Notes under the pieces: generated by a model | What the model was told of the DNA's origin: nothing | Seen by the model: only the letters and a program-made list of their open reading frames with translations | Databases searched by the model: none | Assembly: GCA_949317995.1 (NCBI GenBank) | Contig: OX439041.1 | Location: forward strand, 48,221,269 to 48,285,268 | DNA from: Acholoe squamosa | Taxonomy: Eukaryota; Annelida; Polychaeta; Phyllodocida; Polynoidae | Direction: 5' to 3' | Length of the DNA: 64,000 nt | Shown here: positions 3,083-59,724 of the stretch, piece after piece | Layout of the letters: each line of letters begins with the position of its first letter | How positions within the stretch are numbered: the first letter of the stretch is position 1 | Made by a program: the position numbers and the translations under genes

Positions 3083-3802
3083 TCTATAAGCTTGCATAGG
3101 GCACCGGACCATTATTGGGGCCTTTTTCCTATCACTTGATGCTCAATAAACAACCCTTCCTTTGAAAGTTTTGCCTTCCCCTGACTCTGCTGTCTACTGT
3201 TTACAGATGTACAGCCATATTTAAGTCTAAAAGAATATCAGCAATGGGCACAAAAAGAGTATGCCTGTAGACGCCCCGCCCCCCACCCCTGATTTCATGT
3301 AATGCATTTGTAAGCATTTGGCAAGACCCCCACCCCCTGGATGTGTACATACTTTATGGAAGCCTCTTCATGATAACAGGGTTGTCTTTTTCATTAACAG
3401 TTATCTAGCGCCTCCCACGCCGCGTAGCGGCGGTACCGCGAAGTGGTACACGAGTGCGCTATGATGATTGCATTTGCCCCGTGTGATGAGGTCTCACAAT
3501 ACAAAATTACTGAATACAGACATTAACGGCGGGAGGCGTTTTTTTACGCGGTCACAACTGCATTTCTTGTTAAATATTGAATATTCGATAAGTCAATTTT
3601 TCTCATTCAATCATAATGAAAACCTACAAAAGAGTTCTCCTTGGGGTTATCTTTACGTCCGAGGTTGTATAGCCAACAGGTAGTACCTTATACATGAGGG
3701 CCAAGGGCCTTTTTAAAATAGTTACCCCCAAAGGGCCTCTAACCAAGAAGCTTCAATAGATAGGAGGTGAAACTCAGAGCTTTACCTATGGACACAGTGT
3801 AA

Positions 3803-6034
3803 CAGCCCCCCCCCTCTACCCCCCCTTCAAAGTAGGCTCCCTTTTGTGTTCAGTATTGAGTCCTATGCAGGGTAAGGGGGTTTATAGAGATGTCAGGAAT
3901 CTTTATCAGAGTGATATCAAATGAAAACAAGGGGCCACCTATACCAAAAAATCCTGCTGAATCCAAAATTTGTGATCTTGATTCTCAAAATTTGACCAAA
4001 AGTACCTAAAAAGGAGGTTTGATGATGAGAATATTTTAAAAATGTACAAAAGTTATATTGAAAATGATTGGAACTATTTATAAATGCAACATGCTAATCA
4101 AAGTCAATACCTGAATCTACATATCCTAATGTTTGCCTATCTCAACCTGACAAGTACTCTACCTGTGTATGGCTCTGCCTCTCCTACATACTGCCTATCC
4201 CTTAGTCTACCTATCACTCATACTACGTATCCCTTGAAACATCTAGAGTTTAATTAGGTTTTCTCTCAAATGGCTTAAAGGATTAAAGTTTACCCTTCAC
4301 CTTTGTACCTAATTTTCTCTGTACATTCTTACCATTAGTCTACCTATCCTCAATCTGCCTATCATTCACTTTACCTATCCCTCATGGTGACTATCCCCCA
4401 ACTCTTCACATCCCTCATGTTTGACTGGCACATCTGTGATATTACCTAGCACCAATATATCTTTTGAATATGCTCACCTTACAAGGTACCCTCTGTACCT
4501 ATCTCTTAAACTGTTTATTACCTATCCTCCTTGCTACCCATCCTCTTAAATACCTATCCCTCAAGCTCACTTTATAGCTTTCCTACCTATCACAGCTTGA
4601 TCAGCTGGGATAGCCCACGACCAACCTTCATTTTGATCTCTTAGTCAACCTATACCCTAAGGAACAAATTTAACAGTCTACCTCGCACATACATCTACCT
4701 ATCACTCATGCTATATATCATTGAGGTTACCTATCCTTCAGGCTGCCTATCCTCAGTTTTTTAACTTGTCAAGTGGGATAGCATGAACGATATGCAGCAT
4801 GAAGGATAGGAAGAGGGGAATAAACAACATACATGTAGGATAGGAAGTAAGCTAGTCTAATGATAGCCATGGTGAGGCATTTTAGAAAAGCATGATAATT
4901 CAATGGGCTGAGGGATATGTAAGGTAAACATGAGTGATATGCAGACTTGAGGATAGGTACAATGAGCGATAGGTATATTTCACAAGGCATAGACTATAAG
5001 AGCTACTATAAAGGTAGAAAGAATAGCATACAAGGTGAGAGATACATAGATAGCTGGTTAGGTAGGCAGAGGGCTATATACCATGAAGGATAGGCAGCAT
5101 GAAGGATAGGTAACCTCAAGGATATATAGCATGAGTGATCAGTAGATGTATGCTTGAGGTAGACTGTTGGATTTGTTCTTTAGGGGATAGGTTGACTAAG
5201 AGATCATACAAAGGTTGGATTTGAGCTATCCCAGCTGTTCAAGCTGTGATAGGCAGGAAAGCTATAAATTGAGCTTGAGGGATAGGCATGAAGAGGATGG
5301 GTAGCAAGGAGGATAGGTAATAAACAGTTTAAGAGATAGGTACAGAGGGTACCTTGTAAGGTGAGCATATTCAAAAGATACATTGGTGCTAGGTAATATT
5401 ACAGATGTGCCAGTCAAATATGATGGATGTGCAGAGTTAGGGGATAGTCACCATGAGGGATAGGTAAAGTGAATGATAGGCAGATTGAGGATAGGTAGAC
5501 TAATGGTAAGAATGTACAGAGAAAATTAGGTACAAAGGTGAGGGGTAAACTTTAATCCTTTAAGCCATGTGAGGGAAAACCTAATTAAACTCTAGATGTT
5601 TCAGGGGATAGGTAGTATGAGTGATAGGGCAGACTAAGGGATAGGCAGTATGTGGGAGAGGTAGAGCCATACGCAAGCAGAGTACTTGTCAGGTTCGGAT
5701 AGGCAAACATTGGGATATGTAGATTGAGGTACTGACTTTGATTAGCATGTTGCATCTATAAAAAGTTCCAATCATTTTCAATATAACTTTTTTACATTTT
5801 TAAAATATTCTCATCATCAAACCTCATTTTTAGGTACCTTTGGCCAAATTTTGAGAATCAAGACCACAAATTTTGGATTCAGCAGGATTTTCTGGTATAG
5901 GTGGCCCCTTGTTTCCATTTGATATCACTCCGATAAAGATTCCTGACATCTCCATAAACCCCCTTATCTTACATAGGACTCAGTACTGAACACAAAAGGT
6001 AGCCTACTTTTAAGGGGGGTAGAGGGGGGTGGCT
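3803..6034. mobile_element. 2.2-kb imperfect palindrome with about 950-bp arms
   Basis: The left arm (about 3803-4755) and right arm (about 5085-6034) are reverse complements along almost their whole length, separated by a loop of about 330 bp. Identity is very high in the outer arms: 3892-3946 matches the reverse complement of 5893-5947 at 53 of 55 positions. It is lower, with small indels, towards the centre. The inner two thirds of each arm are degenerate repeats of CTACCTATCCCTCA (left) and its complement TGAGGGATAGGTAG (right); the loop carries the right-arm polarity. No transposase-like frame is visible. The best reading is a fold-back-type non-autonomous DNA element or an inverted duplication. 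No target-site duplication could be defined. Confidence 0.8.
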
Positions 6035-6354
6035 TGCACTATAGGACTCTATGGAGTAACATATCCTAGGGAACCTATACTATTCTTGCTCTAACCCCGT
6101 CCTACCCTATCCACCGTTCCATGGACTTTCCTCAGCCTCAGGGACTTTCCTTGTTGCAAGTGTTCACAGTTGTGGACCAGTATGAGATCAGAGTGAGCCA
6201 GTGAATATGTGTGTCACAAAAGTTCTTTAGTTGTTGCTTTAAACCGCTGTGACTCATTCTTGCAGCATTATAGGGGTAGGTTTCATCAGTTTTCCCCTGA
6301 CCGCTGGGTCGACGCTACGAACACATGCTTCAGAATACGTCCACACAAAAGCGC

Positions 6355-7124: not shown

Positions 7125-7245
7125 ATGGAGTTGGACGCGTGGACGAAATCGCCCGAGGAGGTAGTGAACTACTTCAAATCGGACGAAGCGACGGGCCTTA
7201 GCGATGAACAAATCAAGAGAAATTTTGACAAGTTCGGCCCCAACG
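7125..7245 (+). CDS. SERCA exon 1: cytosolic N-terminus
   Basis: This is the first coding exon of a P2A-type calcium ATPase, the pump that moves cytosolic Ca2+ into the sarco/endoplasmic reticulum at the expense of ATP. It encodes 40 residues beginning MELDAWTKSPEEVVNYFKSD and ending KFGPN, plus one base of the next codon. The vertebrate family has the same layout (ME..TK..EE.L..F....GL...Q....) but is about one residue shorter. The start was chosen because it fits the family N-terminus and has a strong context: A at -3 and G at +4 (CAAGATGG). The exon ends AACG|GTGAGC in phase 1. The segment forms the start of the actuator domain on the cytosolic side. An in-frame ATG at 6966 is a less likely alternative start. 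Confidence 0.93.
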
Positions 7246-7539
7246 GTGAGCCTTTTGCAATTCTCCTGTATATCTTTACCTGTAGCGTATCTGAAATTGT
7301 AAATAGTGTTAGCGTGTAACACTTCCGTAGAGAAATACAGAGATCAGAGCTAACAGAAGGGGCTTCTTTCTCTCCCTTCTCCTGTAAGCCCGATACCGGG
7401 TGGGTGCGGGCAGGTCCCGTCACTGTGACGGCCCATCCCCGTGTCGTTCATTCATCGTAATCTCTCCTATTACCGCTCACTGCCGGTCCCACTGGTGTGT
7501 CACACATTTCTGAAAATCTGCTCTTTATTTCTTTTGCAG
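7246..7539 (+). other. SERCA intron 1 (294 bp)
   Basis: The intron runs from GTGAGC at 7246 to the acceptor CTTTTGCAG at 7539, with a pyrimidine-rich run before the AG. It contains a perfect 7+1+7 palindrome, CCGTCACTGTGACGG, at 7417-7431. Nothing else in it was recognised. Confidence 0.9.
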
Positions 7540-40190: not shown

Positions 40191-42522
40191 CTCTTTTAAG
40201 GGAGAGTGATTGTCAAGATTTCATGCGAATTCGAAGAATTCTTCAACGTCTGCTCTTCAGAGCTGATGATTTTTTTTCGTGAACCCCATGAATTATTCAA
40301 CATTTGGTGAGGTAAAAGCCAGGAAATCAACGTTTATAACAATCATCATTGAAAAAAATAGCAATATATGACTGTGAGACCTTGGATACAAAAAAAAAAA
40401 AAATCGACCTACCGACCTCAACTCTTTTAACCATGTTACCGGAAACACAGCTTCTCTTCTTTTTAGGCCTTTACACTTCGTTTTGTGGTTGGCCTACTAT
40501 TGATTCAGTTATCTACTGTCAGGTTCATCCTTACAATACTGCATCCTCTCATCCGCCTGCTTGTATTATTGCTGCTACTGTTGCCATGGCTACAGCAGAT
40601 ATGGGCACACTGTGCAGAATGGAGCACAAATGGACCAGAAACGCATTTCTAAGGAGTAGTGGCTGGTCACATGACTCGCTCACTACATGTAGTCACTGGT
40701 GGCCTGCAGGCAGTGTGTGCAGAGGGAAGACAACACGCACACCGCCTGTGTGCAACAGGCGGATGTGCACTGTGGGTGTGGCTGCCTGACATGTTTAATG
40801 ACTATCACTTATATATAGTGTGTTATTGTCTCATGATGAACCATCTCAGTAGAGGTATTTTACATGGTATTGTGAGGAGAGTTCTATGGGTGACAGACAA
40901 AGGGATGGGGGGAAACATTGCTGCAAGGGTAATTTACACTGATGGGCAAACTGAGGATGATGGAGTGGCTTCACGAAAAGGCAAATAAAGCTCTCCGTGC
41001 AGTGCACTCTCACCCTACACTTCCCTGCTATATTCCCACCCCACCTATGGTGCAACTACATGGTTTGGTGACACTCCACACCCTTGGAGACTGACCTTCT
41101 AGGCTCAGAGGATCGTGTCTAGAATGACCAGACACAGACAAAGGCTTATCTCAACATTAAGTCATCAGCTGTTCTTCGGTCAGCACCCTAGAGTGTGCGC
41201 TGTCCACCCTACCAACCCTTCTCTCTACACTAGTATTATACAGGCTAGACTGTTATTGCCTCGGGAAACCCAGTATATGGGTAATGCAACCATGTGATAA
41301 ATCTGCAGTATGTTGTGAGGCTATAGTATAAGCTGTACTACGATATAATGCTGCGAGTTACCCTGCGAGTAAAAGCAGTAATGTGAGCTGCACAGAGGGG
41401 GACACTGCTGCCGTGCCTTGATTTATGATGATGATATAGGGTACGTGGCACTGAGAGATGCGAGCTGGAGCAGGGCATAGGAGGCAGGGGTGTAGTCTAG
41501 GCTGAAATGAAATGGGAAAGATAGACTTTGATGAGATAGACAGGTAAGGGATATTATAGGTTTCAGGTGTTGCTCTATCTGCTGTATGATAGGATGGGAT
41601 AGATATCTCCTTCCGTAGCTCCTGTCCCATCCCCTTCATAGAGCATTCAAGCTCAGCACTTCCCTTCTAAACGACGCCCTGTCTCAGGACTCAGACAAAA
41701 GCATCTGCTCGTACAGGTACCATATTCAGGAACCATCCCCTGCAAAGCTGACAAATCTGATTTGGTCTGCAAATAGGCAAAGTCCCTAAATCTGTGGTGC
41801 AGGCAGTGAGATGAATATGGAGAATCTAATTAGGAGGTGCTGAATGTAGTGTGGGTGTAGGGGGCTTGGTGTCAGTTGTAGAAGACTGGGTGCGTGTGGA
41901 TAATACAGGCTCATTATGTGGGAATTATGATACAGCCAATATGCAGCCTATACCTCTGATACACGGCTTGTAAAGTGACACCACATGGAATAAGGTAATA
42001 TTACACATTGACGTCCTATCATATGAACAAGGTCAGGAAAGCTCCAGCTACACCGACACTAATACCAGTCCTCTAGATTGGCCTAATGATGATACATATA
42101 TATGCAGATATATCTGTGACATACGATCTGATATAATGCCCCTTAGCAATATTGGATTGTGTTCAGTGTTAATGATTCCGAGCTAACCGTGCCTTCCCAC
42201 TTGCAGCTATGTTTAGTTCTTCCCAATAGAATTCAATCACGGCTAGTACGAGTAGGAGAATTGATGATGTCATTACTGAGCGTGGTGTCGTATAGTGAGC
42301 AATAGCGGAGGTGAATACAAATTGACTTGCCAATAGCACCTCTACCTGACCTGAACACTAGTGGTGTGCTCCCTAGATTAAGTCTCATCGAGACTGATTG
42401 GCAAATGTATATTACATTTATGTGAGCGCATAGAGAGGACAAGTTCAGTTTGAATGCAGTTGTTGGAATCAGCATTATAGATCTGATAGAGCTCCTGCTG
42501 ATGGTATTGCTAATGGTGCTGC

Positions 42523-42671
42523 TGTTAGCTCCAATACTGCTGCTGTTAGCTCCAATACTGCTGCTGTTAGCTCCAATACTGCTGCTGTTAGCTCCAATAC
42601 TGCTGCTGTTAGCTCCAATACTGCTGCTGTTAGCTCCAATACTGCTGCTGTTAGCTCCAATACTGCTGCTG
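42523..42671. repeat. 21-bp minisatellite, 7 copies
   Basis: The unit GTTAGCTCCAATACTGCTGC plus T is repeated seven times almost perfectly. Because 21 is a multiple of three, all frames stay open: the - strand reads SSSIGAN repeats within an open frame spanning 42233-42679, and the + strand reads LLLAPIL repeats. This explains the frames without invoking a gene. Confidence 0.92.
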
Positions 42672-59067: not shown

Positions 59068-59724
59068 GTCAGTATCAAGTGTTGCCCTACAGGGGGTGCT
59101 AAGGGAGGGTTTAGTCAGTATCAAGTGTTGCCCTACAGGGGGTGCTAAGGGAGGGGTTTAGTCAGTATCAAGTGTTGCCCTACAGGGGGTGCTAAGGGAG
59201 GGGTTTAGTCAGTATTAAGTGTTGCCCTACAGGGGGTGCTAAGGGAGGGGTTTAGTCAGTATTAAGTGTTGCCCTACAGGGGGTGCTAAGGGAGGGGTTT
59301 AGTCAGTATTAAGTGTTGCCCTACAGGGGGTGCTAAGGGAGGGGTTTAGTCAGTATTAAGTGTTGCCCTACAGGGGGTGCTAAGGGAGGGGTTTAGTCAG
59401 TATCAAGTGTTGCCCTACAGGGGGTGCTAAGGGAGGGTTTAGTCAGTATCAAGTGTTGCCCTACAGGGGGTGCTAAGGGAGGGGTTTAGTCAGTATCAAG
59501 TGTTGCCCTACAGGGGGTGCTAAGGGAGGGGTTTAGTCAGTATTAAGTGTTGCCCTACAGGGGGTGCTAAGGGAGGGGTTTAGTCAGTATCAAGTGTTGC
59601 CCTACAGGGGGTGCTAAGGGAGGGGTTTAGTCAGTATTAAGTGTTGCCCTACAGGGGGTGCTAAGGGAGGGGTTTAGTCAGTATTAAGTGTTGCCCTACA
59701 GGGGGTGCTAAGGGAGGGGTTTAG
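59068..59724. repeat. 47-bp minisatellite, 14 copies
   Basis: The unit begins GTCAGTATYAAGTGTTGCCC and continues TACAGGGGGTGCTAAGGGAG to GGGTTTA. Fourteen head-to-tail copies are nearly identical, apart from a TATCAAG/TATTAAG alternation and a one-base shortening (GGAGGG instead of GGAGGGG) in two units. The block CCTACAGGGGGTGCTA in each copy matches the CTCF consensus at 13 of 16 positions. There is no coding potential. Confidence 0.95.

Follow-up and report, generated by a model that had tools for sequence, protein, structure and literature searches.

A giant palindrome near a calcium-pump gene of Acholoe squamosa is one copy of a young fold-back DNA transposon family whose scars resemble P-element excision footprints

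The window analyzed here is a 64,000-nucleotide stretch of the Acholoe squamosa genome in which a very large palindrome lies upstream of a calcium-pump gene. An inverted-repeat search confirmed this palindrome, which had been claimed earlier from the letters of the DNA, by pairing 3807–4211 with 5628–6032 (92%), 4210–4547 with 5291–5628 (97%), and further blocks inward as far as 4753/5087. However, the motifs AGCC and GGCT, which the original prediction took as the sharp limits of an element, bound only the arms. The element itself ends at 3744 and 6088, about 60 bp beyond both palindrome limits and in two unlike tips, and the palindrome is therefore internal to it.

Read on the + strand, the element begins with a 60-bp left tip (3744–3803) that starts CAAGAAGCTTC and lies outside the palindrome; likeness to other copies ends at 3744. 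There follow arm 1 (3804–4754, +), which corresponds to consensus positions 61–1028, has its inner limit set from the consensus, and lacks consensus 1008–1024 in the window copy; a center of about 314 bp (4755–5068, +), also delimited from the consensus, with its motif sites oriented as in arm 2; arm 2 (5069–6034, +), the reverse complement of arm 1, as placed by the inverted-repeat search, the copy alignment, and the consensus; and a 54-bp right tip (6035–6088, +), likewise outside the palindrome, that ends ATTCTTG according to copy alignments. The whole is flanked by the target-site duplication CTCTAAC, which is the same on the left (3737–3743) and on the right (6089–6095). The consensus, built from 38 two-ended copies (37 other loci plus the window copy), is 2364 bp long and comprises a 60-bp left tip, a 968-bp arm, a 314-bp center, an inverted 968-bp arm, and a 54-bp right tip. 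Its arms align without gaps and are identical at 929 of 968 positions (96%), and the sole sequence common to both tips is CAAGAA at the ends, a 6-bp inverted repeat. The arms of about 950 bp described before thus hold, whereas the 330-bp loop between them is corrected to the shorter center.

Both arms carry many TACCTATCC-like sites. With two or fewer mismatches, the consensus contains 26 forward and 29 reverse sites, whereas 200 mononucleotide shuffles average 6.7 and reach 14 at most. All but three of the forward sites (23/26) lie before consensus position 1002, and all but one of the reverse sites (28/29) lie after position 1077. Their most frequent spacing is 16 bp, not the 14 bp of the repeat motif proposed at first. 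A search for a long ORF across the element found none; five ORFs of at least 50 aa overlap it, the longest being 73 aa. The predicted RNA fold of the window copy is mostly arm on arm (896 of 947 arm-1 bases), with a minimum free energy of −1671.9 kcal/mol versus −575.8 to −594.6 kcal/mol for three mononucleotide shuffles. If the palindrome is transcribed, a long double-stranded RNA is a structural possibility under this folding model.

The neighboring calcium-pump gene lies outside the element and starts at 7125–7247 on the + strand, where the translation matches Pfam PF00690 (Cation_ATPase_N, E 1.8e-7). A pump gene is thus located downstream on the + strand as foreseen, and the distance to its first exon at 7125, given earlier as 1.1 kb to a SERCA start, is about 1.04 kb when measured from the true end of the element. 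No further tip pair with CAAGAA-type ends and 7-bp duplications was found in the window. Elsewhere in the window, a 47-bp unit is repeated 14 times at 98% (59068–59724), and a perfect 21-bp tandem repeat of 7.4 copies (42517–42671) has frames open on both strands.

The genome (1.48 Gb in 63 contigs) was searched with the first arm of the palindrome as query. From 2898 first-look candidates, 40 matches were scored, each covering almost the full query at 97% or higher. One of them is the window copy, and the remaining 39 loci lie on 11 contigs and agree with the arm at 97–99%. The sequence is therefore multi-copy, and its copies carry target-site duplications of their own. A single alignment covers at least window positions 3744–6088 in 33 of the 39 loci and is split or partial in the other six. 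Both ends are present in 38 of the 40 loci, L025 and L045 each lacking one end. Directly outside CAAGAAGCTTC...ATTCTTG, an exact 7-bp duplication, with no longer match, was found at 36 of the 38 two-ended loci, and at L010 the duplication has one mismatch. At L011, both ends are kept and the flanking 7-mers differ at six of seven positions, which is expected if two copies recombined. The earlier expectation that copies would end at 3803 and 6034 is literally refuted, since the ends sit about 60 bp beyond those positions. Nevertheless, the multi-copy arm matches and exact duplications support the fold-back transposon reading that accompanied it.

The 36 empty sites that could be rebuilt reveal a roughly palindromic preference centered on the duplication, with G at position −2 in 23, T at 2 in 26, A at 6 in 27, and C at 10 in 29, as well as A or T at −4 in 34 of 36 and at 12 in 30 of 36. 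The symmetry does not extend to positions 1 and 7 (G at position 1 in 15 of 36, C at position 7 in 6 of 36).

Mean divergence is 0.99% (median 0.79%) between the 38 copies and their consensus and 1.7% among the copies; because they were chosen as best matches, the family as a whole is broader than their divergence of about 1%. Arm 1 and arm 2 differ by 4.0% in the consensus and by a mean of 5.4% within 37 copies, compared with the 0.99% that separates copies from the consensus, and the palindrome therefore predates the burst. Of the variants at the 39 positions that distinguish the two consensus arms, 108 match the base of the partner arm and 18 are another base, with 29 gaps. These partner-base variants stem in part from shared ancestry, but variants also occur in runs, for example in L044 and in one group of five copies, which suggests that the arms occasionally exchange sequence. 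Such exchange is weak, since the arms of one copy (5.38% apart) are only slightly closer to each other than to the arms of other copies (5.45%; 0 of 5000 permutations as low). A private-variant test gave a similarly weak result (5/210 versus 3/210 in the control), and the two tests thus back homogenization of the arms weakly.

With two or fewer mismatches, the left tip (first 24 bases) occurs at 977 places genome-wide and the right tip (last 23 bases) at 1324, with no occurrences in either reversed control. Right tips thus exceed left tips in searches whose patterns are slightly unequal in length. Tip pairing was assessed with 100 listed matches per tip, all exact, on contig C1 and on contig C2 below 55.2 Mb, leaving aside three listed left tips further along C2. 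Among the matches listed, a right tip lies within 15 kb of 61 of 97 left tips, and 27 of these 61 pairs span 2300–2420 bp. Among the 12 left tips that head the list for C1, five belong to two-ended copies with an exact duplication within about 2.57 kb, one belongs to a two-ended copy without an exact duplication, and six have no right end in the stretch. Six long tip pairs on C1 and C2 (2985–12318 bp), five of which have an exact duplication by eye, were considered as a larger autonomous version; this was rejected because all six combine pieces of this element with additional sequence, and no transposase of the family was recognized in them. Short tip pairs are internal deletions, with an exact 7-bp duplication by eye in four of four. 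A discrete 1.1-kb subfamily was also rejected, because the internal deletions differ between the two that were read of seven such pairs.

The genome also contains scars in which a short stub of the left tip lies close to a stub of the right tip. An initial search required that the opening 16 bases of the tip run into sequence foreign to the family, and the left stub is thus at least 16 bases long by design. This search returned 27 places (reversed control, 0), all of which were fetched and which represent 23 flank groups. Twenty groups are stub-to-stub scars under a criterion of two or fewer mismatches in the duplication, which is exact in 12, has one mismatch in seven, and has two in one. The three others (L080/L092, L083, and L094) are not stub-to-stub scars. 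L080 and L092 have the first 19 tip bases followed by one shared foreign sequence, with different left flanks, and this continuation is another repeat, perhaps one joined onto a broken tip.

Because the initial search forced a left stub of at least 16 bases, a wider pattern was run (CAAGAAGCTTC, 0–30 bases, TTCTTG) that allowed up to 41 matching bases on the left and 36 on the right. It matched 228 places genome-wide and none in the reversed control. Among the 100 of these 228 places that were listed, the left stub match ranges from 11 (forced) to 19 bases and the right from 6 (forced) to 22. Microhomology of 1–3 nt is present in 64 of the 100 listed strings, a share for which the chance expectation was not computed, and a single 28-bp string accounts for 15. 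Of the 100 listed, 20 strings leave five or more bases unexplained, and some are therefore mutated or unrelated. In 20 scars fetched from the list, none of which share flanks, the duplication is exact in 15, has one mismatch in one, two in one, three in two, and seven in one. Note that the wider pattern misses scars with shorter stubs, so that the figure of 228 is both incomplete and impure. These short tip-stub pairs resemble excision footprints left by cuts with a long stagger, such as those of P-element transposase.

According to excerpts of the published account, P transposase leaves 17-nt noncomplementary 3′ overhangs, its repair products have a duplicated target around tail pieces that are often joined at microhomologies, and P element insertions carry 8-bp duplications (PMC2895639). 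An excerpted account of other systems gives Tc1/mariner footprints of a few bases, none for piggyBac, and random ones for hAT (PMC3878927). Because P excision leaves joined tail pieces and the other footprints differ, the scars point to P-like excision; as with P, each places short remnants of the two ends between target duplications, and microhomologies often mark the join. The duplication, 7 bp and exact at 36 of 38 loci, agrees with the 7 or 8 bp of the P superfamily, and the stubs agree in kind with about 17 nt per end but are somewhat longer, with limits of 19 and 22 bases among the 100 of 228 places listed. P itself combines 8 bp with 17-nt tails. The terminal repeats of P elements are 31 bp long, whereas CAAGAA alone is common to both ends here, and P-type excision is known mainly from Drosophila experiments.

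Excerpts of three reports describe Galileo of Drosophila as a P-superfamily element with mostly 7-bp duplications, internally repetitive inverted repeats of up to about 1.2 kb that contain several THAP binding sites, transposase-less copies, and the target consensus GTANTAC (PMC4168063, PMC3573991, PMC3688188). The palindromic family comes closest to the non-autonomous two-TIR copies of Galileo as described there, sharing 7-bp duplications, long repetitive inverted repeats, and the lack of a transposase. However, the long inverted repeats of Galileo form its ends, whereas the arms here start 60 and 54 bp inside unlike tips, and the target is not GTANTAC (G1, T2, A6, and C7 in 15, 26, 27, and 6 of the 36 sites). 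Judged by these sequence features, end structure and target consensus, the palindromic family is not a Galileo. Tetris, in the excerpted description, likewise has long inverted repeats of short repeats, a variable middle, and known copies without transposase; its duplications are 8–10 bp rather than 7 bp, and its authors placed it with Mutator (PMC4079207). A literature search that did not use the organism name returned no paper recognized as describing the palindromic family. FB and the sea-urchin TU are other fold-back elements with long inverted repeats built of short repeats and with a variable middle. Mutator-type fold-backs have 8–11-bp duplications, compared with 7 bp at 36 of 38 loci here, and hAT elements combine an 8-bp duplication (NTNNNNAN) with no long end stub, compared with 7 bp and stubs of up to 19 and 22 bases.

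Twenty matches to PF21787 show that the genome does contain P-type transposase domains. At the two P transposase loci inspected, no family tip was found in the 2.1 kb upstream. Four further matches on C1 and C2 lie 69–207 kb, by eye, from the nearest listed exact left tip. No autonomous copy with the same tips was found among the six long tip pairs or in the 2.1 kb upstream of the two loci.

The palindrome near the pump gene is one young copy of an enzyme-less DNA transposon with about a thousand relatives in the genome. We consider it likely that this DNA transposon is non-autonomous and fold-back in form, was amplified recently, and is mobilized in trans by a transposase like that of the P element. 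A P-like enzyme supplied in trans would be recruited by binding the TACCTATCC-like array and would pair the two unlike tips, and its long-staggered cut would leave about 17–22 nt of each tip on the donor. The break would become a scar when closed by end joining, or, when copied from a template, would give a restored element or an internally deleted copy; insertion would duplicate 7 bp. The fold-back form may multiply binding sites, while the unlike tips may preserve the distinction between the left end and the right. The copies with internal deletions are consistent with template copying that was interrupted. Against the P-like reading stand the stub limits, which exceed 17 nt and are unequal (19 left, 22 right), the terminal inverted repeat of only 6 bp, the failure to find an autonomous copy, a target preference that is not that of Galileo, and the 5 of 20 fetched scars without an exact duplication.

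Several of these points would also suit the same fold-back element served by a transposase from a different, perhaps undescribed, superfamily whose insertions duplicate 7 bp and whose cuts fall about 19–22 nt inside the ends. No partner appears among the six long tip pairs or upstream of the two P transposase loci, the stub limits are 19 and 22 rather than 17 and unequal at the two ends, and the target preference is unlike the Galileo consensus. We nevertheless regard this as unlikely, because about 17 nt per end after a long-staggered cut is a reported property of P transposase (PMC2895639) and the footprints of Tc1/mariner, piggyBac, and hAT are given as shorter, absent, or random (PMC3878927), as far as the excerpts of both sources extend. 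It is less probable still that the scars are micro-elements of 19–37 bp that transposed themselves and are not footprints. Such units could account for the 28-bp string seen 15 times among the 100 listed and for the duplications that scars carry. However, many different junctions obey the same limits, with none of the 100 listed exceeding 19 + 22 bases, and the commonest repeated strings match 1–3-nt microhomologies between the two stubs, so that repeated end joining at the same microhomology explains their recurrence without mobility. As for the readings as a lone inverted duplication or as an artefact of assembly upstream of the pump gene, the former of which was offered in the original prediction, the palindrome itself and nothing more speaks in favor, and the 39 other loci, at 97–99% over the queried arm with the same ends and their own duplications, effectively rule both out.

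Under the preferred P-like reading, a single young family appears to have left a couple of hundred inherited excision scars, or more, in one genome. Sequence data alone then yield approximate cut positions, the outcomes of end joining, and a ratio of excision to presence for an animal without genetics. Two roles that are usually mixed in long-TIR transposons also stand apart here, in that the short unlike tips are cut and the long inverted array may only recruit the enzyme. More tentatively, and less likely than not in our view, the genome may amount to a natural experiment in cutting and repair, in which a transposase mechanistically unlike that of P would cut the unlike ends at about 17–19 nt on the left and 20–22 nt on the right, and at least about 228 scars, set against the roughly one thousand remaining tips of each kind, would record germ-line end joining in which a few microhomologies are dominant.

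Some copies are broken. L049 and L058 retain the left arm only, and the second arm is absent in 7 kb further. L056 is broken near the arm/center junction, just upstream of a frame that by eye resembles a short-chain dehydrogenase. Consensus positions 1000–1030 at this junction, a region picked post hoc, contain 8 of 25 hand-listed deletion or truncation breakpoints, a cluster that perhaps arose from breakage at the hairpin tip.
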